Of a DNA stretch of 43,021 nt, positions 22,414 to 32,726 are shown in pieces (within the stretch, counting starts at the first letter, position 1; every line of letters begins with the position of its first letter). The translations under genes were made by a program, and so were the position numbers. The stretch is from Caldifarciminota bacterium (GTDB lineage Bacteria > SDB-A), in contig JAFGIG010000140.1 in assembly GCA_016929715.1 (NCBI GenBank), forward strand, positions 1-43,021, given 5' to 3'. The notes beneath the pieces were generated by a model. It did not search any database and was not told the origin of the DNA. It saw nothing but the letters and a program-made list of their open reading frames with translations.

Positions 22414-23988
22414 ATGCCTGAAAAACATTCAATAATAATCGTCGATGACGAGAAATCCATAACTGAGCTGTTGAAGGAAATACTCGTCACTTCCGGTTTT
22501 GACGTTGAAACTACAAACGATTCCGAAGAAGCACTTCAGATAATAAAAAAAAGGAGCTTCGACGTAATCCTCACGGATCTTAAAATGCCGAAAATCAGCG
22601 GAATAGAACTTATAGAAAGGGCTCTGCTGGTTAGAAAAAATGTCATACCCATCATTATGACTGGATACGGAACGATTGAGTCCGCTGTTGAAGCCATGAA
22701 AAAAGGCGCTGTGGGATATATACCAAAACCTTTCAGGGCAAAAAACATAATTTCCGTGATCCAAAAAGAGCTCGAGGCGAGAGATCTTAGGAAGGAAAAC
22801 ACCTATCTTAAAAAAATTATCGCCGTCAACGATTTTTTTGACAGCCTTTCCTGCGAATCTAAAATTGACAATGCCTATAAAGGGATATTGGAAACCTGTG
22901 AATTTATACTACCTCTCAATAAACTCTATTTTTTTATAAAATCCTCTCCCAAGGAAAACTGCATCGTCAAAGTCAAAGGAGACACATACGAAAGCGAAAC
23001 AAGCGCAAATTACGAAGAACTCGCAAAAAAGGTTATTTCTCAGAACATTGCATACAGTTACATAGATTCTGAGGAAGGCAAGATATTTGCTTTGACCATG
23101 AGGAGCAGGAACACAATAAACGGAGTGGTACTGATGCTTCTACCCGCGGATTACGTGATACCTGACGAGGATCTGAGAATATTGAGGCTTCTTGCCAACA
23201 GAGTTGCTATTTCGATTGAAAACATGTGGCTGATAAAAGGAATCGCAAGTTCAATTAAAAAAATACCGATTCATCAATCTCCGATAATGGAATACACAAA
23301 AGGCTCTTTTGTCTCTGAAATCGCTTCAATAATCTCTCATGAAATCTCAAATCCGCTGAGTGCCCTGCAGATCGCAATAGATTATATAAACAATCTTAGT
23401 GCTCCTTTTGAAAAGGAAAAATTCGATCAGGCTTTCTCCTGCATCAACGAAGGTGTAATGAAGATATCGGATATAGTGAACAATCTCAGATCGCTGTCTG
23501 TCAACCGCACTCCTGTCTATTCGTCAACAAACGTCAATTCTCTTATCTCGGAAACACTCAGAATACTAAATGATAATCTCGCCTTAAAAAAAATAAATAC
23601 TGAAATTTCCTTGGACGAAAGGAATCCTGTAATTCAGGCGGATAAAGATCAGATACAACAGGTATTTATGAATATAATAGCTAATTCAACAGAAGCGATA
23701 AAAAGCGATAACGGATTGCTTAAAATAGTTTCAATTTACGACGATAATGAAAAGTGTGTTTACCTGTCTTTTGAAGACAACGGGCTAGGAATCGAAAAAG
23801 AAAATCTTGAAAGGATTTTCGATCCTTTTTTCACTGCAGGCAGGGGAAATGGAAAAAAAGCCGGACTCGGTCTTGCGATTGCAAAAAAAGTAATCGGAAA
23901 ACACAGGGGGACAATCAAAGCAGAGAGTGAACCCGGGAAAGGCACAAAAATCACAGTAAAGCTGTATGATAATCCGGATAATATTTAG
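22414..23988 (+). CDS. Response-regulator/sensor histidine kinase hybrid (REC-sensor-HisKA-HATPase)
   Basis: This is a 524-residue cytoplasmic kinase with no membrane segment. An N-terminal receiver domain (about 5-120) has the acidic pair D11-D12, phospho-acceptor Asp55 in LTDLKMP and Lys105 in YIPKPF. A GAF-like sensor region (about 135-285) follows, then a HisKA domain with His309 in ISHEISNPLSALQ. The ATPase domain has NIIANSTEAI, EDNGLGIE and GLGLAIAKK. A receiver ahead of the kinase suggests it is switched by another histidine kinase. No output regulator is adjacent. No clear ribosome site precedes the ATG, and the leader is about 14 bases. Confidence 0.92.
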   Translation: MPEKHSIIIVDDEKSITELLKEILVTSGFDVETTNDSEEALQIIKKRSFDVILTDLKMPKISGIELIERALLVRKNVIPIIMTGYGTIESAVEAMKKGAVGYIPKPFRAKNIISVIQKELEARDLRKENTYLKKIIAVNDFFDSLSCESKIDNAYKGILETCEFILPLNKLYFFIKSSPKENCIVKVKGDTYESETSANYEELAKKVISQNIAYSYIDSEEGKIFALTMRSRNTINGVVLMLLPADYVIPDEDLRILRLLANRVAISIENMWLIKGIASSIKKIPIHQSPIMEYTKGSFVSEIASIISHEISNPLSALQIAIDYINNLSAPFEKEKFDQAFSCINEGVMKISDIVNNLRSLSVNRTPVYSSTNVNSLISETLRILNDNLALKKINTEISLDERNPVIQADKDQIQQVFMNIIANSTEAIKSDNGLLKIVSIYDDNEKCVYLSFEDNGLGIEKENLERIFDPFFTAGRGNGKKAGLGLAIAKKVIGKHRGTIKAESEPGKGTKITVKLYDNPDNI

Positions 23989-24824
23989 ACAATTTTTTTT
24001 CCTTGAACATGCTTTTCCAAAGAATATTTCCAGTCCGGCGGTTTTATTCCCGTGACGGATGAGAAAAGTGAAAGGTCAAGAACAGAATATTCAGGCCTCG
24101 GGGCGGCGTTGGGGTATAATCTGCTGGATGTTTTGATAACTTTCGGCGCCTTGATTTCTTTTAGCTGAAAATAATATTTTGCGATTTCAAACCATGTGGT
24201 TTCTCCTGAATTGGAGACGTTCACTATGCCTCTGTATTGGCTGTTGACAAGAGCAACAGTCCCTTCACATAGAAAATCAATAACAGTAGGAGACCCGCAA
24301 AAGTCGCCGACAACATTGATTTCGTTCCGAACGCGCGCTGCCTCAGAGATTTTTTTTATAAAACCACCGTTTTGCGTCAGCAGCCATGAAGTTCTTATTA
24401 TCAGGTAATCCGATAATTTCCTCTGAATAATATTTTCGGCTTCAAGTTTTGACTTGCCGTATACTGATATTGGATTAGGGATGTTTTTTTCATTGTAGGG
24501 CTTTTTTGATTTGCCGTCAAAAACGTAATCGGAGCTGTAAAAAATTAACCTCGCGTGGCTTGTGAAATCGCAAATGTTTCCGGTTCCGGTCGTATTGATT
24601 TCCATCGCTTTTAGAGGATTATTTTGACAGTAATCGACATCGGTTATCGCGGCTGTGTGGATAACTATATCAGGAGAATTTATTTTGAAATATGTGTTTA
24701 ATGAATTACGATCCGTTACATCAAGTTCTTTTTTCGAGGGAGAGAGTATTTTGAAATTTTGAAGGTAATTTTTTAGAACGGAAGCGACAGCACCTTCGCC
24801 GCCGGTAAGAAGGACGGTTTTCAT
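23985..24824 (-). CDS. rfbD: dTDP-4-dehydrorhamnose reductase-like protein (RmlD family)
   Basis: This 279-residue short-chain reductase of the RmlD type reduces dTDP-4-dehydro-rhamnose to dTDP-rhamnose in classical pathways. It has a Rossmann start VLLTGGEGAVAS, DIVIHTAAITDVDYC, SSDYVFDG and the catalytic YGKSKLE. The glycine motif GGEGAVAS departs from the usual GxxGQLG. The start is set at ATG 24824, which overlaps the upstream stop (ATGA); the frame is open 33 bases further. It is last in the mglB-to-rfbD operon, its 3' end overlapping the kinase gene by four bases. No rfbC epimerase is in view. Confidence 0.88.
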   Translation of the reverse strand: MKTVLLTGGEGAVASVLKNYLQNFKILSPSKKELDVTDRNSLNTYFKINSPDIVIHTAAITDVDYCQNNPLKAMEINTTGTGNICDFTSHARLIFYSSDYVFDGKSKKPYNEKNIPNPISVYGKSKLEAENIIQRKLSDYLIIRTSWLLTQNGGFIKKISEAARVRNEINVVGDFCGSPTVIDFLCEGTVALVNSQYRGIVNVSNSGETTWFEIAKYYFQLKEIKAPKVIKTSSRLYPNAAPRPEYSVLDLSLFSSVTGIKPPDWKYSLEKHVQGKKIV

Positions 24825-25555
24825 TGACGTTTTTGTTCTTTTCTGACGTAATCCCATGCTCTTGAATATGATTCAATGGTTCCCGCATCTGTCCACCATC
24901 CTCTAAGGTAGCCGTGAGTAAGCGCTCCTTCAAAGATGTATTTATTATTTACTTCAGTTATTTCTATTTCGCCCCTTTCTGAAGGTTTTAACTTTTTAAT
25001 TACGCTAAAAACATCCCTGTGATACATGTATATTCCAGTCACGGCGTAATCTGAATCGGGGACAGACGGTTTTTCGGTGATCTTTAATATTTTTCCGTCT
25101 TTAATTTCAGGGACGCCGAACCTTTCCGGTGTATTGACTTTTTTAAGCAAAATACGGGCTCCGGCCTTCTGTTTTAAAAAGATCTGCGTCTGTTTAGTCA
25201 GGTCGTCTGAAAACAAATTGTCGCCGAGAACTACGATTATTTTTTCTCCGCGGATGGAATTCTCACAAAGACCAAGGGCGTGAGCAATTCCCTTTTCGCC
25301 TTCCTGATATATATAGAATATGTTTTTCAGTCCGAAATCACGGCCGTTCCCGAGTAACCTAATGAAATCCCCGGCGGATTTGTCGCCGACGACGATTATT
25401 AATTCTTCAATGCCCGAAGCGGCTATTTTTTCGATGGGGTAGAAAATCATCGGTTTGTTGAATACAGGGAGCAGATGCTTGTTTGTAATTTTTGTCAGCG
25501 GAAGAAGTCTGGTTCCGAGACCTCCGGCGAGAATTATACCCGTCAATTTTTGCAT
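24821..25555 (-). CDS. rfbA: Sugar-1-phosphate nucleotidyltransferase (glucose-1-phosphate thymidylyltransferase-like)
   Basis: This 244-residue enzyme activates a sugar phosphate as a nucleotide sugar. It has LAGGLGTRLLPLTKITNKHLLP (positions about 9-30; key Arg17 and Lys26), a VLGDNLF metal site near 108-114, and ERFGVPE and ITEKPS further on. It is about 50 residues shorter than RmlA of enterics, matching the short RfbA form of many non-model bacteria and archaea. dTTP is the likely nucleotide, but UTP is possible. It overlaps the epimerase gene upstream by 13 bases and rfbD by four. Confidence 0.88.
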   Translation of the reverse strand: MQKLTGIILAGGLGTRLLPLTKITNKHLLPVFNKPMIFYPIEKIAASGIEELIIVVGDKSAGDFIRLLGNGRDFGLKNIFYIYQEGEKGIAHALGLCENSIRGEKIIVVLGDNLFSDDLTKQTQIFLKQKAGARILLKKVNTPERFGVPEIKDGKILKITEKPSVPDSDYAVTGIYMYHRDVFSVIKKLKPSERGEIEITEVNNKYIFEGALTHGYLRGWWTDAGTIESYSRAWDYVRKEQKRQ

Positions 25556-26469
25556 CTAAATGCCTCTATCATAAGATTTAACCCTTGATGAAGATTAATC
25601 TTCGGCTCCCACCCCAGAATATGTTTGGCTTTTCCGATGTCCGGTTTTCTTGTTTTAGGGTCATCATCGAGAGGTTTGTTAAAAACGATTTTCGATTTTG
25701 AACCTGTAGCTTCGACAATCGAATCGGCAAGCTCCTTTATGGTTATCTCTTCGGGGTTTCCTACGTTAATAGGAAGGTAATAATCCGCATCTATAAGCAT
25801 TAGGAAAGCGTCGACGACGTCATCAATATAGCAGTAGCTTCTTGTCTGGCTGCCGTCACCGTAGATGGTAATATCTTGACCCGACAGGGCGGATCTGACG
25901 AAATTGGGAATAGACCTTCCGTCATTGAGGCGCATATTCGGACCGTATGTATTAAATATTCTGACAATTCTGGTGGAAAGGCCAAATTCTCTGTGAAAAG
26001 TCATTGTCATCGATTCTGAGAACCTTTTTGAGACTTCATACACGCTTCTGGGCCAAATAGGATTGACACTGCCGCAGTATTCTTCGTTTTGCGGTGAAGT
26101 AAGAGGGTCTCCGTATATTTCCGATGTAGAAGAAAGAAAAAACAGGGCTCCATTCTTTAGAGCGTAATTTAGCGCGTTGTATGTGCCCACTGAACCGGTT
26201 AAAAGCGTTTCGACGGGGAATCTGAAATAATCAGGAGGACTCGCAGGAGATGCGAGATGAAAGACGACATCCGCTTTTTCTTCTATCTCTATAGGCTTTG
26301 TGACATCGCCTCTAATGAATTTATAGCCCTGTGATTTATTTTGTTCAATATTGCGCATATCGCCTGTCGATAAATTGTCGAGGCAGATGACTCTTTTGCC
26401 TTCTCTTAAAAGCCTTTGGGTCAGATGAGATCCTATGAATCCGGCTCCTCCTGTTATAAGATACGTCAT
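25543..26469 (-). CDS. NAD-dependent epimerase/dehydratase, UDP-glucuronate decarboxylase-like
   Basis: This is a 308-residue extended SDR: NAD-binding GGAGFIGSH at 7-15, HLASPASPPDY at 71-81, TSEIYGDP at 115-122 and catalytic YEVSK at 144-148. The ASPASPP segment, TSE triad and later NTYGPNMRLNDGR favour UDP-glucuronate decarboxylase (UDP-xylose synthase) over dTDP-glucose 4,6-dehydratase, whose triad reads TDE. Its neighbours rfbA and rfbD would suit a dehydratase, so function is open. The ATG follows directly on the stop of the DgkA fusion. Confidence 0.85.
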   Translation of the reverse strand: MTYLITGGAGFIGSHLTQRLLREGKRVICLDNLSTGDMRNIEQNKSQGYKFIRGDVTKPIEIEEKADVVFHLASPASPPDYFRFPVETLLTGSVGTYNALNYALKNGALFFLSSTSEIYGDPLTSPQNEEYCGSVNPIWPRSVYEVSKRFSESMTMTFHREFGLSTRIVRIFNTYGPNMRLNDGRSIPNFVRSALSGQDITIYGDGSQTRSYCYIDDVVDAFLMLIDADYYLPINVGNPEEITIKELADSIVEATGSKSKIVFNKPLDDDPKTRKPDIGKAKHILGWEPKINLHQGLNLMIEAFRCKN

Positions 26470-27570
26470 TCAGGCTCCTATCCGGGCATAAGGTGGTAAA
26501 TATATATAGATCATCAGATATTTAGAGATTATCCCCGCGAAAGAAACAGGGATCGAGTATCTTTTCTTGCATGAAAAAGCCACAGAATACGAAGAGGAAA
26601 TAACTGCTGAAGAAAAGGGAAAAGGAGCGGCTGACAAGCAGAATATGCCTAATAAATGAAATTTGCTTGAGTTAATACTTTCATGATTGTTTGAGTTTTT
26701 ACTGAAAGAATTCTTAAATCTCGGCCCCCACGTTGAGAGAAAAAACAAAAAAACGAATTCCCCCACAAGAGATAAAATTCCCGCAGTCAGAGGAGGTCTC
26801 AAAGACGCAATGTAGCCAGAACCAGTTGATGCGCAAGCACCTATAATGAAACTTACAAAACGCCCGTCGCTGAGAATCAGATTGAACCCGTTGATAATCC
26901 TGAAACAGACAGCGCCTGCTATAATGGAAAAAATACCCGTCATATAAACTTTATCGCTCGATTGGTTTCTCAGTAATGCTTCGATAAGTATTATTCCCCC
27001 GATTAAAAGAAAAAAGACGAATGTAACGGAAATAGAGTAAAGAGTCAGAAAAGTGACAAGAAAGACGACAGTGAAAGTGGTCTTTTCCAGATAAAAAGTG
27101 AAACTGCCGTAAGTGCGTCTGAAATAAAGGACAATGACTATGGAAAACAAAAAAGCGGCGGCAAGGAGAAAGACAAGCGGCGTTTTAAGGATGAATTCCG
27201 AGAAAATTTCTATAGAAGCCATGGCTGAGTCCGCAAGAATGAGATATGCGAAAATAATTGATGAAAAAGTAGCGCAGAGGACGGCTCCGGCGGAAATATC
27301 TTTGGCGTTTTTGACGAATTCGTTATAACCCGGAGACACGAAGTCTGAAAGAATCTCTATTGATGAATTTATCAATTCTGCCGTGATGACCATGGTGGCT
27401 ATGGCGAGGAGAGCGAGGGAATTTTTGAGTCCTGCTCCTCCGAATATGATCGAGTAGAGAGCGAGGAAAAAAATAAAAATATGAAGATGTATGTGTTTTT
27501 GTGTTTTGAGCGCGAGTTTTATGCCTCTAAGGGCGTTGAAAAAAGATTTGCCGATTTGGGTATCTGCCAT
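26470..27570 (-). CDS. DgkA-type lipid kinase fused to a polytopic membrane domain
   Basis: Residues 1-115 match the small DgkA/undecaprenol kinase family: SFFNALRGIKLALKTQKHIHLH, then the active-site region ITAELINSSIEILSD (Glu65, Asn68, Glu72) and VKNAKDISAGAVL. The enzyme phosphorylates diacylglycerol or undecaprenol in the inner membrane. Usual length is about 120; this one continues to 366 with some seven more hydrophobic segments and no family I can name. There is no PAP2 phosphatase motif. The last part (APFPFSSAV onward) is only faintly like SNARE-associated/DedA proteins. It overlaps mglA by one base (TAATG). Confidence 0.75.
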   Translation of the reverse strand: MADTQIGKSFFNALRGIKLALKTQKHIHLHIFIFFLALYSIIFGGAGLKNSLALLAIATMVITAELINSSIEILSDFVSPGYNEFVKNAKDISAGAVLCATFSSIIFAYLILADSAMASIEIFSEFILKTPLVFLLAAAFLFSIVIVLYFRRTYGSFTFYLEKTTFTVVFLVTFLTLYSISVTFVFFLLIGGIILIEALLRNQSSDKVYMTGIFSIIAGAVCFRIINGFNLILSDGRFVSFIIGACASTGSGYIASLRPPLTAGILSLVGEFVFLFFLSTWGPRFKNSFSKNSNNHESINSSKFHLLGIFCLSAAPFPFSSAVISSSYSVAFSCKKRYSIPVSFAGIISKYLMIYIYLPPYARIGA

Positions 27571-28151
27571 TACTGGGACAGCTTTTTGAGAACTAGCTTG
27601 GAGATTTCCTTCAACGTGGAAAAAACACCGATGCCTTCGCTTGCCACAGCTTCAAAAGAAGGGACTTTCAAAGGGTTGAGGAGTTTTTCCAGCTGGTTCA
27701 TAGGGGCTATGTTGGGGAGATCGCGTTTATTGTATTGAATCACGAAGGGAGTCTCTCCGAGTTTCAAATTATACTCTTTAAGATTCTCAATAAGATTTCT
27801 TATGCTTTCAATATTGTCTTCAAGTCTTTCAATCTGTGAGTCTGCAACGAATATCACTCCGTCAACACCCCTTAAGATTAATTTCCTTGAAGCGTTGTAA
27901 TAGACCTGCCCCGGAACAGTATAGAGGTGGAAACGAGTCTTAAAACCCCTTATCGTGCCGAGGTCCACGGGAACGAAGTCGAAAAACAAAGTTCTGTCCA
28001 TGTCCGTGGCTAAAGAAATCAATTCTCCTCTATGGCTCGGGTTTACTTTTTCGTAGATTTTTTTAAGGTTGGTTGTCTTTCCGCCGAGTCCCGGCCCGTA
28101 ATAGACGATTTTACAGTTTATCTCTCTTGAGGCGTAATTAATTACAGACAA
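27570..28151 (-). CDS. mglA: MglA-type small Ras-like GTPase
   Basis: This 193-residue GTPase is of the MglA family, which sets the front-rear axis in Myxococcus and occurs widely in bacteria. The P-loop GPGLGGKT is at 19-26. TVPGQ at 78-82 replaces the DTAGQ of Ras, as usual in MglA, and NKRD at 141-144 reads guanine. The start is TTG at 28151 with AGGAG some six bases upstream; the nearby ATG is out of frame. Its presumed regulator MglB is encoded just upstream, so the two form a GTPase/activator pair. Confidence 0.94.
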
Positions 28152-28159
28152 ATCATCTC

Positions 28160-28654
28160 CTAATGTAAATCTTCAAAGAAATCTTCAAGAAAGTTGTCTA
28201 TTTCGACATCTTCTGTCGGGAAAGCAGCGGTTTTGTCTTCTTCAATTTTCTTTGTAATTTTTATAAATATTTCCGAAAGATTTTCTTTTGTTCGCAGGGC
28301 TTCTACTTTGACCCTGCCCAACGGAGTATGAGATTTAAATATTATGGCAAGTATGAATTTATCCTCTATAATCTGGATAAATATATTGTTTTCCATACCC
28401 TGATGGTGCAAAGTTGCGAATGCGTTTTCGCCTATCAAGCCAGCGAGGTGGCTTGTGGCGGCATAATCGGCTGCTACGAGAGAAGAAAACGCAAGTATAT
28501 CTATATTCTCTGTTTCTCCGCAGGATACAATGGGCTGTCCAGATCTGTCAATGAGAACCACTACGCGGGCGTCAATTGTTTTCTGAAACGTCGAAGTGAT
28601 ATTTTTCAATACCCAGAAATCTTCTTCTAATATATCTATGTGTTCATAAGACAT
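28160..28654 (-). CDS. mglB: Roadblock/LC7 protein, MglB-like
   Basis: This 164-residue protein has a roadblock fold (about 10-125): [17 protein letters not shown], then [12 protein letters not shown] and a strand-rich second half. Roadblock proteins next to MglA act as its GTPase activator. The C-terminal 30 residues are acidic and probably disordered. No ribosome site is visible; a candidate promoter overlaps the recR stop codon upstream. mglA follows after eight bases. Confidence 0.88.
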
Positions 28655-28688
28655 AATTTTGCCGTTTGCATGGAGTTACGAGTATTTG

Positions 28689-28714
28689 TTATATGATATG
28701 GCACTATTAGTCAA
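28689..28714 (-). promoter_or_regulatory. Candidate promoter of the mglB operon
   Basis: TTGACT (28709-28714) covers the recR stop codon; TATAAC (28689-28694) follows after a 14-15 base spacer, which is short. The leader to mglB would be about 28 bases. It would allow mglBA and the sugar genes to be transcribed apart from dnaX-ebfC-recR. Confidence 0.3.
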
Positions 28715-29321
28715 CCTGTTTTTTGATTTGGATTCTTCCTTCGAGAGAGAGCCTTATGGTCTCGAGGTCCAGAAGGTCAATATCTCCCCCGACAGGAATT
28801 CCCCTTCCGAGTCTTGTAACTGTAACTCTGAAATCGGACATCAAATCCGCCAGATAAAGCGCTGTCGTATTGCCTTCTGGAGATGGGTTAGTCGCGATTA
28901 TAACTTCCCGGACGTCTCCGGATCCCACTCTTTCAAGGAGCTTTCCGATGCTTAATTTTTCCGGACCTATTCCGTCAAGAGGAGAAAGAGCACCGCCGAG
29001 GACATGATAAAGGCCGTTATAAAAATTTGTGCTTTCGAGAATTATCTGGTCTATAAAATTCTCCACTACGCAAATTACCGTTTTATCTCTTGAAGGATCT
29101 TTGCAGATGTGACATTCATCTCTGTCGGAGATTGATCCGCAACTGAGGCAAAAATATGTTTTTTCGTGAAGGGTTTTCAGGGATTCCGCAAGCTTAAAAG
29201 CAGTCTGCGGACCTTTTTCGAGCAGATGAAAAACGATGCGCCTCGAACTTTTTTTTCCAAGTCCCGGGAAAGAAGCGAGTATTTCAATCATCTCCTCTAT
29301 ATGTTTTGGTATTGATGGCAA
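28707..29321 (-). CDS. recR: Recombination mediator protein RecR
   Basis: RecR works with RecO to load RecA at gaps. The 204-residue protein has a helix-hairpin-helix FPGLGKKSSRRIVFHLL at 18-34, a four-cysteine zinc site (C58, C61, C70, C73) and a Toprim domain (about 80-175) including LGGALSPLDGIGPE. The TTG start follows the ebfC stop with no gap. dnaX-ebfC-recR is a common bacterial gene order. Confidence 0.96.
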   Translation of the reverse strand: MPSIPKHIEEMIEILASFPGLGKKSSRRIVFHLLEKGPQTAFKLAESLKTLHEKTYFCLSCGSISDRDECHICKDPSRDKTVICVVENFIDQIILESTNFYNGLYHVLGGALSPLDGIGPEKLSIGKLLERVGSGDVREVIIATNPSPEGNTTALYLADLMSDFRVTVTRLGRGIPVGGDIDLLDLETIRLSLEGRIQIKKQVD

Positions 29322-29636
29322 TTAAGCGTAGTCCCCCGGAATATCAAAAGGCCCTGTTACGTTTTTCATTTTTTCCTGCGCGGCAATTTTCGCCTTTTTC
29401 TGCGCGGCGCAAAAAGCCGCTACGATAAGATCCTCGAGCATCCCGGCGTTGTTCGGGTCTATTATTTCTTTCTCAATTTTCAAGGAAACAGGAGTAAAAG
29501 CGCCGTCGAGAATTGCCTTGACCATGCCTCCGCCTGCTTCACCTTCAAATCTTTCTTGAGACAGTTCTTTTTGTATTTTGTCTATTTCAGACTGCATTTT
29601 CTTCGCCTGTTCTACTAATTTCTTAAAATTCTGCAT
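29322..29636 (-). CDS. ebfC: YbaB/EbfC nucleoid-associated protein
   Basis: This 104-residue DNA-binding protein is of the YbaB family: helical N-terminus (MQNFKKLVEQAKKMQSEI), the conserved GEAGGGMVKAILDG near 32-45, and a C-terminal helix. It forms a dimer that binds DNA broadly; its exact role is unclear. It lies 11 bases after dnaX and directly before recR, its classical place. AAAGAG is the ribosome site. Confidence 0.95.
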   Translation of the reverse strand: MQNFKKLVEQAKKMQSEIDKIQKELSQERFEGEAGGGMVKAILDGAFTPVSLKIEKEIIDPNNAGMLEDLIVAAFCAAQKKAKIAAQEKMKNVTGPFDIPGDYA

Positions 29637-29647
29637 GTATTGCTCTT

Positions 29648-31078
29648 TCAGTTGATTTCAATAACTTCTCCTCCGAAAAGGTTTTTAATTTTTTTAACAT
29701 TCTCGTCATTATCCGCTTCATTTTCGGCGGGACCTTGTAAAAAAACAATTTTCAAATCCCTTTTCCAGATTTTGAGGGAGGCTTTTTGAATTACTGATGA
29801 ATTGCCCTTGTTTTGAAGCAATTTGACAAAACCGGGATTGGGAAGCGTAATGACAAGGGATTCGTTTTTAACTTCAGCTGTAGAATTAACAAGGTAATGA
29901 TATACAACCTTATTTTCATTTTCAATCTCTTTGAGCATTTGGGAATACTGTTGATCGGGATTTTTAACCGCAGGTTCAGCCTCTTTGAAACTATCTCCGT
30001 GATTGATGTTTTCATATTTTAGAATAAGGTCCTTGACTGATTTCGTATCGACCATTCGAGCTATTCTCGCGAGGAGAATTTCAAGGCGTATTTTAGGAGA
30101 CAACTTTGAATTGACATCGAGAAAAGACGACAAAAGTTCAAGAGCCCTCAAGGTTCTGTCGATGCCAAGTCTGTTGGAAGGGGTGTCATCGGAAGTTTTT
30201 TTCAGTGAATCGTATAGAGCAAGGGCAAGCGAATGAGCTATATCGTTCGGTTGATAACCTTCTCTGATTATGCTGTCGCAAATGAGAAGAACTTCTTTCG
30301 CTTCGTGATCGGATAGCGCTTTAATGATGTCTTTTATACTATTTATGCTGACTTCTCCTAGTATTTCACGCGCTTTCTTTTCGTCGATATCCGAATAAAC
30401 TGAAATTTGTTCAAGAAGGCTCAGAGAGTCCCTTACAGATCCCTGCGCTTTTCGGACAATGACATTTAAGGCCTCTTCAGAAATATTTATATTTTCTTTT
30501 TCAGAGACAATTTTCAAATAGTCGAAAACAGCCGTGTCTCCAACTAACTTGAAGTCGAATCTTTGACATCTCGATATTATTGTCTGCGGAACTTTTTCAG
30601 GTTCCGTGGTAGCGAAAATAAATCTTGTATTAGGCGGAGGTTCCTCGAGAGTCTTGAGGAGAGCATTGAAAGCTTCTTTTGTGAGCATATGAACTTCGTC
30701 TATTATGTAAATTCTTTCTCGGGAAACAGGCGTATAGAGGAGATTTTCCCTTATTGACCTGATATCGTCGACTCCTCTGTTTGAAGCTCCGTCAATTTCT
30801 ATTACGTCTTGGAAACGGGATTCAGATATAGCTTTGCATGAAGAGCATTCGCAGCATGGTTTGGAAGAAATTCCCTTTTCGCAATTTATCGCTTTAGAGA
30901 GGACTCTCGCCGCCGTTGTCTTGCCGACGCCTCTGGGGCCTGAGAAAAGGTATGCCTGTGCAATTTTACCCTTTTCGAGCGCGTTCTTTATGGTTTCTAC
31001 TACGTGTTTTTGTCCGATGAGGCCGTCGAAGTCTTCCGGTCTCAGTTTCCGGGCGAGAATCAGGTAGTCTTCTTTCAT
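29648..31078 (-). CDS. dnaX: DNA polymerase III subunit gamma/tau
   Basis: DnaX is the clamp-loader ATPase. The 476-residue protein has the P-loop GPRGVGKT at 47-54, a zinc module with C66-x8-C75-x2-C78-x2-C81, the DEVH Walker B at 127-130 and FIFATTEP sensor 1. Regions beyond about 360 are diverged, and the length is that of a short tau or gamma form. The start at 31078 is only about 15 bases from the predicted 3' end of the SRP RNA, with CAGGA as ribosome site, so the RNA and message probably share a transcript. Confidence 0.95.
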   Translation of the reverse strand: MKEDYLILARKLRPEDFDGLIGQKHVVETIKNALEKGKIAQAYLFSGPRGVGKTTAARVLSKAINCEKGISSKPCCECSSCKAISESRFQDVIEIDGASNRGVDDIRSIRENLLYTPVSRERIYIIDEVHMLTKEAFNALLKTLEEPPPNTRFIFATTEPEKVPQTIISRCQRFDFKLVGDTAVFDYLKIVSEKENINISEEALNVIVRKAQGSVRDSLSLLEQISVYSDIDEKKAREILGEVSINSIKDIIKALSDHEAKEVLLICDSIIREGYQPNDIAHSLALALYDSLKKTSDDTPSNRLGIDRTLRALELLSSFLDVNSKLSPKIRLEILLARIARMVDTKSVKDLILKYENINHGDSFKEAEPAVKNPDQQYSQMLKEIENENKVVYHYLVNSTAEVKNESLVITLPNPGFVKLLQNKGNSSVIQKASLKIWKRDLKIVFLQGPAENEADNDENVKKIKNLFGGEVIEIN

Positions 31079-31093
31079 TTTCCTGCCATTTCT

Positions 31094-31196
31094 AAGCGGT
31101 CAGCTTGGCTTTCGACAGGAGTGCTCTGGATACCGTTGCTGCCTCCCGGCCCTGGCGGAGTTCTCCGGCACATCCTACGAAAGGGCCGACCGCTTT
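31094..31196 (-). ncRNA. ffs: Signal recognition particle RNA, small bacterial type
   Basis: A 103-base RNA with closing helix AAGCGGTC/GACCGCTT and an inner helix CCCTTTCG/CGAAAG. The tip matches the universal SRP domain IV: CGCCAGGGCC, tetraloop GGGA, then GGCAGCAACGG. The usual tetraloop is GGAA. There is no Alu domain. With Ffh and FtsY (not in view) it targets membrane proteins. It lies between tRNA-Ala and dnaX, the same strand and neighbourhood as in Bacillus. Ends are set by the closing helix, to within a few bases. Confidence 0.88.
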
Positions 31197-31223
31197 TTAA
31201 AACATCTGATCTAAAATTGAAAA

Positions 31224-31296
31224 TGGAGCAGAGCGGATTCGAACCGCCGGCCTCCTCCGTGCGAGGGAGGCGCTCTTCCATCTGAGCTACTGCCCC
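31224..31296 (-). tRNA. tRNA-Ala (anticodon CGC)
   Basis: A 73-base tRNA: acceptor GGGGCAG/CTGCTCC with the G3-U70 pair that marks tRNA-Ala, D-stem GCTC/GAGC, anticodon stem CCTCC/GGAGG around CTCGCAC (anticodon CGC, for GCG codons), and T-loop TTCGAAT. The CCA end is not encoded. It begins eight bases after the stop of the secreted protein gene and is followed after 27 bases by the SRP RNA. Confidence 0.96.
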
Positions 31297-31304
31297 TTTC
31301 GATT

Positions 31305-32726
31305 TCATTCCATTGTTACTATTATGTAGTATCTGCAGTCAGTAAAAAAACCGTCGTAGTCAGTATACGGATAAACTTTTACATATATTTTTTGACCTCT
31401 GTCAAGCTCGATTCTGCAGGTTTCATTTGTAGGATCGCCGTTGTTGTCTATGTCGGATGAAGTGATTACCTCGCCCGAAGCGTCTTCAATTTGGATTACG
31501 AGGTCGCCTTCGCCGGTTGTTCCCTGTGTTTCGATAGTGTATGTCGCTTTCCTGTCGGCAGTGAATACGAAATAATCCATGAAATCGAATTCGTTAAATG
31601 ACAGCTCATTATTTGATCGGGTGCCCAGGCTTAGAGGATTCGAGTTGGCTCTTGAGGCATCTCTGTCGGGATGGTGAACCACTTCAATGTTGAAATCGGC
31701 GTATTGCCTTGAGTTTGGATTGTTTGCAACCACAATAAAATACTTTCCGCCAGGGAGCACAAGTCTTTCCTTGCCAAGAATTCCGTCAAGATCATTGTCC
31801 GATTGGAGAATAGAGTCGCCTGAAAAAGCTAACAAAACGAGATCGGCATCTTCCGATATGAGATCGACAACTGATATGCCTTCCGTGGGCAGTGAAAGCG
31901 AGTAGATGTATGCCAAAACATTTTTTTCAGGGTCTAAAGACGCTTCGTCAAAAGCTCTGTTGGAAGAGAGGACAAGATTGTCGTCTTCGGAAAGAATCTC
32001 ATAGTAAATGTTGAAAAAAATGTCTTCTGTGTCTGATAACGCATAAGGTTTGACAATTATCAGTGGTTTTTCTTCTGACGAGTAATACAAAATCTCCTCG
32101 ATTCCGGAATTGCCCTCCAGGTCATAGTCCGATTGAAGAAGATACGAAAACGGGTTGGAGGGTAAATAAAGTTCGAGTATGATGTCACCGCTGGCTTCAG
32201 CCCTTGCGTATATCAGATTTTTAGTCAGATCGATATCCTGAGGTTCAAAAACCGCGATAGGCTGAGTTTGATTGAGATAGCCTGATATGTTTTCAAGGTC
32301 GCCAATAGTTCTTTCCAAGACGTTTATGGGAGATGTGATTCCAATGAGTTCATCTGTAGCGTAAAACCATGAAAGAACACTGAATTCCTTTGTTTCCGGG
32401 AGCGCTGAGTATGGGTTGGCAATAATATAGTATTTTCCGGGAGAAGGGATCATGAAAACAGCCTGTTCGGCTCCGGTGTTGCCGCCGGCGTCGATGTCAA
32501 CTACTGAAGGGGACATCTCTAGGAAAAGAGTATTCGGTCCTCTTCCAGACAACGTTAAGTCCGTATTGAAATCAGAAGATTTTATCACTACTGAAAGGTA
32601 GCCACTGCTATTGGCTTCAAAATAAAAATAAACCGGTTTGTCCTCAATAAAATAATCTGCTGTTCTGCCTACTGGAAGCTGGTTCATTGTTAATGAGATT
32701 AACGCGGAAAAAAGAATAAAAAACAT
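31305..32726 (-). CDS. Secreted protein with four PPC-like beta modules
   Basis: A 473-residue exported protein with a short signal peptide (about 1-16). The mature part is four beta modules of 110-123 residues, resembling bacterial pre-peptidase C-terminal (PPC) domains. Each ends with a D-x-D motif (D77/D79, D200/D202, D310/D312, D425/D427) in a frame like SDYDLEGNSG or SDNDLDGILG, then a strand such as GKYYIIANPY or GGKYFIVVANN. The aspartates may bind calcium. There is no catalytic domain or sorting tail I can recognise. AAAGGAGG precedes the start. The call rests on internal repetition and overall pattern. Confidence 0.72.
   Translation of the reverse strand: MFFILFSALISLTMNQLPVGRTADYFIEDKPVYFYFEANSSGYLSVVIKSSDFNTDLTLSGRGPNTLFLEMSPSVVDIDAGGNTGAEQAVFMIPSPGKYYIIANPYSALPETKEFSVLSWFYATDELIGITSPINVLERTIGDLENISGYLNQTQPIAVFEPQDIDLTKNLIYARAEASGDIILELYLPSNPFSYLLQSDYDLEGNSGIEEILYYSSEEKPLIIVKPYALSDTEDIFFNIYYEILSEDDNLVLSSNRAFDEASLDPEKNVLAYIYSLSLPTEGISVVDLISEDADLVLLAFSGDSILQSDNDLDGILGKERLVLPGGKYFIVVANNPNSRQYADFNIEVVHHPDRDASRANSNPLSLGTRSNNELSFNEFDFMDYFVFTADRKATYTIETQGTTGEGDLVIQIEDASGEVITSSDIDNNGDPTNETCRIELDRGQKIYVKVYPYTDYDGFFTDCRYYIIVTME

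Follow-up and report, generated by a model that had tools for sequence, protein, structure and literature searches.

In some bacteria, the pair formed by the small Ras-like GTPase MglA and its partner MglB sets front and back. The closest described counterparts of the pair analyzed here are those of Myxococcus xanthus and Thermus. Synteny of dnaX, recR, mglA, and DUF149 was reported for deltaproteobacteria (PMC3983030, in excerpt), and varied neighborhoods were reported for MglA groups 1, 4, and 5 (PMC4316618, in excerpt). Here, we analyze an mglBA locus on contig JAFGIG010000140.1 (assembly GCA_016929715.1) of a Caldifarciminota bacterium; the window is the whole stretch of 43,021 nucleotides. 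Both proteins match those of M. xanthus and Thermus over nearly their full length and share the mglB-mglA gene order, but unlike in the M. xanthus and Thermus module, mglBA precedes glycan-precursor genes here. The genes of the deltaproteobacterial dnaX-ybaB (DUF149)-recR-mglB-mglA synteny (PMC3983030, in excerpt) are together at this locus as well, and they are extended by dgkA, a UDP-xylose synthase (UXS)-like gene, rmlA, and rmlD, an extension found at none of 80 named mglA loci (the best 80 of 574 relatives). The most unusual member of the gene row is a three-part membrane lipid kinase. From sequence comparisons, we consider it probable, with moderate confidence, that an envelope-precursor operon was appended to a housekeeping cluster carrying the polarity pair and that MglA does not aim the synthesis encoded downstream.

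The six-gene run and its predicted products

The run consists of the following genes:

28160..28654, minus strand: mglB, Roadblock/LC7 GTPase-activating protein (GAP)-type partner
27570..28151, minus strand: mglA, small Ras-like GTPase with a TTG start
26470..27570, minus strand: dgkA fusion of 366 amino acids, predicted kinase plus pseudo-PAP2 domain plus PF06695/VTT-like tail
25543..26469, minus strand: UXS-like short-chain dehydrogenase/reductase (SDR) of the UDP-glucuronate decarboxylase type
24821..25555, minus strand: rmlA-like glucose-1-phosphate thymidylyltransferase, short form
23985..24857, minus strand: rmlD, dTDP-4-dehydrorhamnose reductase

The original prediction had described six genes in a tight minus-strand run with gaps of at most 8 bases or overlaps, and this description was borne out: all six are present, and their families are supported. 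An 8-base gap separates mglB from mglA, mglA and dgkA share 1 base (TAATG), the dgkA-UXS gap is 0, the UXS-like gene and rmlA overlap by 13 bases, and rmlA and rmlD overlap by 37 bases from the listed start or by 4 bases from an inner ATG. No glycosyltransferase, flippase, or polymerase gene was found in the run, which holds precursor supply genes only. A promoter/terminator scan returned counts of 16 (shuffle mean, 14.0) and 6 (shuffle mean, 8.1); since these counts do not rise above the shuffles, transcription units are not readable from the scan.

MglB matched PF03259 with 31.6 bits (cut-off, 23) and the M. xanthus MglB chains with an E value of 3.9e-25, and it is the sole Robl_LC7 match in the genome; on the NCBIfam model NF052242, it scored 64.3 of 200 bits, below the cut-off. 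MglA, likewise the sole match in the genome, aligned with the M. xanthus MglA chains over residues 1-192 (E 2.7e-81), with the P-loop, the TVPGQ switch, and the DRTLFFD stretch visible in the alignment to the solved structure; Arg53 and Gln82 presumably have catalytic roles. The UXS-like protein matched a human UXS1 chain with an E value of 8.6e-94 (317.7 bits) and scored 131.1 bits on the RmlB model TIGR01181 (cut-off, 365.1), so that among solved proteins it is closer to UXS than to RmlB, and UXS activity is predicted. The next protein matched PF00483 with 173 bits, and its best solved match was PDB 3hl3, annotated as an RmlA enzyme (E 1.8e-76); it is labeled RmlA-like because it fell under both NCBIfam equivalog cut-offs (224.1 of 320.25 and 217.1 of 360.65 bits). 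RmlD passed the equivalog TIGR01214 with 232.5 bits (cut-off, 224.05).

Our collection holds four genomes of this phylum (G000 to G003), which belong to two genera. All four carry, elsewhere, UDP-glucose-dehydrogenase-type genes and RmlB above the cut-off. RmlC sits elsewhere in G000 to G002, and the sole RmlC-family match of G003 is a weak one immediately 3' of rmlD in the same run. Given these genes, a supply of dTDP-rhamnose and UDP-xylose is plausible. ATPases of the PilB/PilT family, which serve type IV pili (T4P), are encoded on other contigs in all four genomes, so that an ordinary MglA output is available.

Gene order is old and conserved across the region

The same-strand run extends 5' of mglB into recR, 52 bases away, and then into ybaB and dnaX, and a convergent receiver-histidine kinase gene outside the run abuts the end of rmlD:

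28707..29321, minus strand: recR, a widespread upstream neighbor of mglBA (TIGR00615, 219.4 bits, above cut-off)
29322..29636, minus strand: ybaB (TIGR00103, 73.4 bits, above cut-off)
29648..31078, minus strand: dnaX (TIGR02397, 395.5 bits, above cut-off)
31224-31296: tRNA-Ala, just before dnaX
22414..23988, plus strand: receiver-histidine kinase (PF00072, PF00512, PF02518)

The order ybaB-recR-mglB-mglA-dgkA fusion-UXS-rmlA-rmlD, with the convergent kinase as neighbor, is kept in all four phylum genomes and is thus not due to chance; dnaX is likewise kept, although the contig of G001 ends within it. A gene order peculiar to this one genome would have counted against the original prediction, and the order in fact spans both genera. 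Between G003 and the window, the proteins from YbaB to RmlD are 45 to 66% identical, with the exception of MglA (90%); given also the saturation at silent sites, the gene order is old. The mglA-dgkA junction is a TAATG overlap in G000 and G002 and a 42-base gap in G003; within the window's genus, the two genes overlap or almost touch. Members of the genus share a well-conserved recR-mglB gap (28655-28706), a possible promoter or regulatory site. The mglA start codon is TTG in three phylum genomes and GTG in the fourth.

Within the genus, MglA is 96 to 98% and MglB 94 to 96% identical, compared with 49 to 81% for the other run genes. These high values suggested a recent transfer of mglBA, which was ruled out, since fourfold-site differences within the genus are 0.60 to 0.70 for mglA and mglB and 0.53 to 0.73 for their neighbors. 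High identity together with saturated silent sites indicates strong purifying selection rather than recent exchange.

The conserved order is not confined to these genes. The stretch that begins with the kinase and ends at the right edge of the window has 22 of 22 genes in conserved order in G002 as well as in G003 (a count that omits the spurious open reading frame [ORF] 31004-31285, which overlaps the tRNA), and these include unrelated genes and the convergent kinase. Of the 24 ORFs to the left of the kinase, 22 are retained in G001, 0 in the stretch of G002 that was compared, and 1 in G003, whose contig ends ∼1.6 kb farther on. As order is conserved region-wide whatever the function, it is weak evidence for shared function. 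It would even fit genes without any functional link, which share a neighborhood through the syntenic 22 genes and are transcribed from internal promoters; the 52-base recR-mglB gap, conserved within the genus, could hold one, and the 42-base mglA-dgkA gap of G003 is in line with this. We nevertheless regard such independence as very improbable, because mglA and dgkA overlap or almost touch in the window's genus and because the promoter scan did no better than shuffles.

The original prediction had read the run as an operon that suggests spatial control of surface glycan production; on such a reading, MglA-GTP would recruit or activate the lipid kinase together with the precursor enzymes at a pole and thereby localize surface glycan. 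Its layout stands, with the order kept in four of four genomes despite saturated silent divergence, the TAATG coupling, and an unusual fusion protein adjoining mglA. The spatial part fared less well: synteny is general in the region, mglBA has its usual partners in dnaX-ybaB-recR, the run supplies precursors and contains no assembly or export gene, T4P ATPases offer MglA outputs of the usual type, and mglBA is far more conserved (94 to 98% within the genus) than its supposed targets (49 to 81%). We therefore think that MglA is unlikely to direct these enzymes.

mglBA usually follows dnaX, ybaB, and recR

The 80 named mglA loci, being the best of the 574 relatives, are biased toward close ones; the DNA upstream reaches at least 2 kb at 68 of them and 4.5 kb at 56, and the DNA downstream reaches at least 2 kb at 65. 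Upstream of mglA, mglB was found at 59, recR at 52, and ybaB at 47 of the 68 loci, and dnaX at 42 of the 56. No dgkA or UXS gene lay near mglA at any of the 80, although the profiles, built from the phylum, may miss distant DgkA proteins. A single locus, L065 (Eisenbacteria), had rmlA and rmlD near mglA, at least 6.5 kb downstream; it was considered as a case of sugar genes beside mglA elsewhere and rejected at that distance. The gene after mglA was taken as the same-strand ORF by a longest-ORF rule at 51 loci (22 minus-strand cases and 7 with none were excluded). It encodes a CDP-alcohol phosphatidyltransferase at 19 and CinA at 10 of these, and the record titles of all 19 phosphatidyltransferase loci (L024, L027, L031, and 16 others) name Gemmatimonadota or a synonym. 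The phylum analyzed here is thus not the only one with a membrane-lipid gene behind mglA, and in Gemmatimonadota such a gene is probably part of the usual housekeeping company.

Among 386 genomes, PF01219 was found in 127 and an MglA match in 150; MglA matches were compared down to ∼E 6e-65, and printed coordinates were compared by hand. Among the matches listed, DgkA lies within 10 kb of MglA only in the four phylum genomes, a point in favor of spatial control, and the next-nearest pairs are ∼20 kb (G022, with a weak MglA-like protein), 25 kb (G351), and 41 kb (G169) apart. Twenty further DgkA neighborhoods (reaching 5 kb to either side, with two truncated at contig ends) contained no MglA, UXS, RmlA, or RmlD. 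The neighborhood survey suggested with the original prediction thus found the join in all phylum genomes and found neither dgkA nor UXS at the best 80 named loci. The literature searched described no MglA together with dgkA and rml genes, in agreement with the earlier view that no system of this make-up had been described; its proviso that single links may be known was justified by the dnaX-recR-mglA-DUF149 synteny (PMC3983030, in excerpt).

Co-expression of the polarity pair with a glycan that pili pull on, MglA not touching the enzymes, would fit the tight run and the T4P ATPases of all four genomes, and exopolysaccharide is tied to pilus-dependent motility in M. xanthus (PMC7484181, in excerpt). 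No such linkage appears at the 80 named MglA loci (best 80 of 574), myxobacteria included, and we consider this explanation doubtful, though less so than spatial control.

A probably appended envelope-precursor operon

Gene content, order, conservation, and selection are established. The explanation that we favor is a join of two ordinary blocks. An ancestor of this small phylum would have joined an envelope-precursor operon (the lipid kinase, the UDP-xylose-synthase-type SDR, the RmlA-like protein, and RmlD) directly behind the old dnaX-ybaB-recR-mglB-mglA cluster, so that it now trails mglA closely. MglA/MglB would set a pole, with type IV pili as the most likely output, while the four downstream genes would supply dTDP-rhamnose and UDP-xylose for envelope glycan assembly, for which the fusion kinase would phosphorylate a lipid, undecaprenol or diacylglycerol. 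The join would yield co-expression, and MglA would not direct synthesis. Three points weigh against this account: the mglA-dgkA overlap in G000 and G002 is tighter than chance adjacency needs, mglA also precedes a membrane-lipid gene in Gemmatimonadota (19 of the 51 same-strand neighbors, all from that group), and PilB/PilT are identified by family only.

A DgkA fusion with a degenerate PAP2 domain and an added tail

The new part of the finding is the DgkA fusion, predicted to combine intact kinase residues, a PAP2 domain that has lost its motifs, and a DedA/VTT-like tail. The kinase part spans residues 1-112, the pseudo-PAP2 domain about 113-240, and the PF06695/VTT-like tail about 241-366. 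The kinase part matched PF01219 with 80.6 bits (cut-off, 22.3). Active-site positions, for which we assume the roles and numbering of Escherichia coli DgkA, were compared in 22 aligned sequences (the 4 fusions of the phylum and 18 DgkA-PAP2 comparators). Five of the six positions checked are retained, with equivalents of E69, N72, E76, K94, and D95 in 22 of 22. The sixth, E28, is Q in all 4 fusions and in 10 of the 18 comparators; loss of kinase activity through this change was ruled out, as Q is common in the comparators. The fusion is accordingly a predicted lipid kinase with its active-site residues intact. DgkA-PAP2 fusions are common in the sampled genomes (L108 to L116 and L139 to L156), often with Q at E28.

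The fusion is collinear with DgkA-PAP2 fusion kinases over the kinase and PAP2 part, and it differs from them in lacking the PSGH-type loop, in a replaced R...H, and in an added tail of about 125 to 150 residues. An hhalign comparison with 20 DgkA-PAP2 fusions (from which L147, L152, and L157 were excluded as short or without a PAP2 part) gave a probability of 99.7 and an E value of 4e-27 over query columns 3-242. With 7 sequences, the whole-fusion match ended at column 158, and the middle alone was not significant; hmmsearch with the 20-sequence profile gave a match ending between residues 154 and 172. Because the 20-sequence hhalign alignment is of poor quality in parts of its middle, collinearity is the basis for calling this region a pseudo-PAP2 domain. 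PAP2 phosphatases carry two motifs, a PSGH-type loop and SRx5H. Across the 22 aligned rows, 4 of 4 fusions show a gap of 8 columns in place of the loop and an IILIEALLRN-like sequence where SRx5H would stand, whereas S-x-H and R...H are retained in 18 of 18 comparators. By these alignments, the domain has lost both catalytic motifs in all four members and does not qualify as a PAP2 phosphatase.

The tail is weakly supported as DedA/VTT-like (PF06695). It matched PF06695 in all four members at E values up to 1 (best, 4.8e-5), with the window's member at 20.2 to 21.3 bits, below the Pfam cut-off of 30.7. A single hhalign comparison with a 10-row COG2426 alignment gave a probability of 92.6 (E 4.6e-7; controls, 0.1 to 0.5). 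The likeness to PF06695/COG2426 of the VTT/DedA superfamily, although weak, is thus seen in 4 of 4 members, and the PLPxTGAW motif of standalone PF06695/COG2426 proteins is mostly replaced. PF06695 is distantly homologous to DedA (PF09335) (PMC7818093, in excerpt). Reports describe DedA proteins as flippases for undecaprenyl phosphate (PMC10127716 and PMC12893004, both in excerpt). The genome encodes one clear PF06695 protein elsewhere. An AlphaFold2 model of the fusion from 4 rows (mean pLDDT, 46) was uninformative and was not used. A long DgkA frame in G031 was rejected as a second such fusion, since its extra length is mostly upstream of the kinase and it has no tail. The literature searched contained no DgkA-PAP2-PF06695 fusion and no paper on DgkA-PAP2 fusions.

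One could imagine a one-chain carrier machine, in which the kinase makes undecaprenyl phosphate, the dead phosphatase domain binds lipid, the tail translocates it, and MglA, translated from a shared transcript, places the protein at a pole; we regard this as a long shot. If it were true, carrier regeneration and glycan output would be polar.

Other features of the window

The receiver-histidine kinase (22414-23988) has its domains in the order receiver, HisKA, HATPase. Beside tRNA-Ala, 31305-32726 encodes a 473-residue protein, with no function assigned, that is retained in G002 and G003.

Implications

The dnaX-recR background must be subtracted before function is read from the neighbors of mglBA. 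Should MglA/MglB indeed steer the regeneration of the carrier, this would add a new output to those of bacterial Ras-like GTPases. The fusion, so far seen in a single small phylum, is useful regardless: it is a predicted lipid kinase whose phosphatase domain has decayed and which carries an additional, possibly flippase-like tail.

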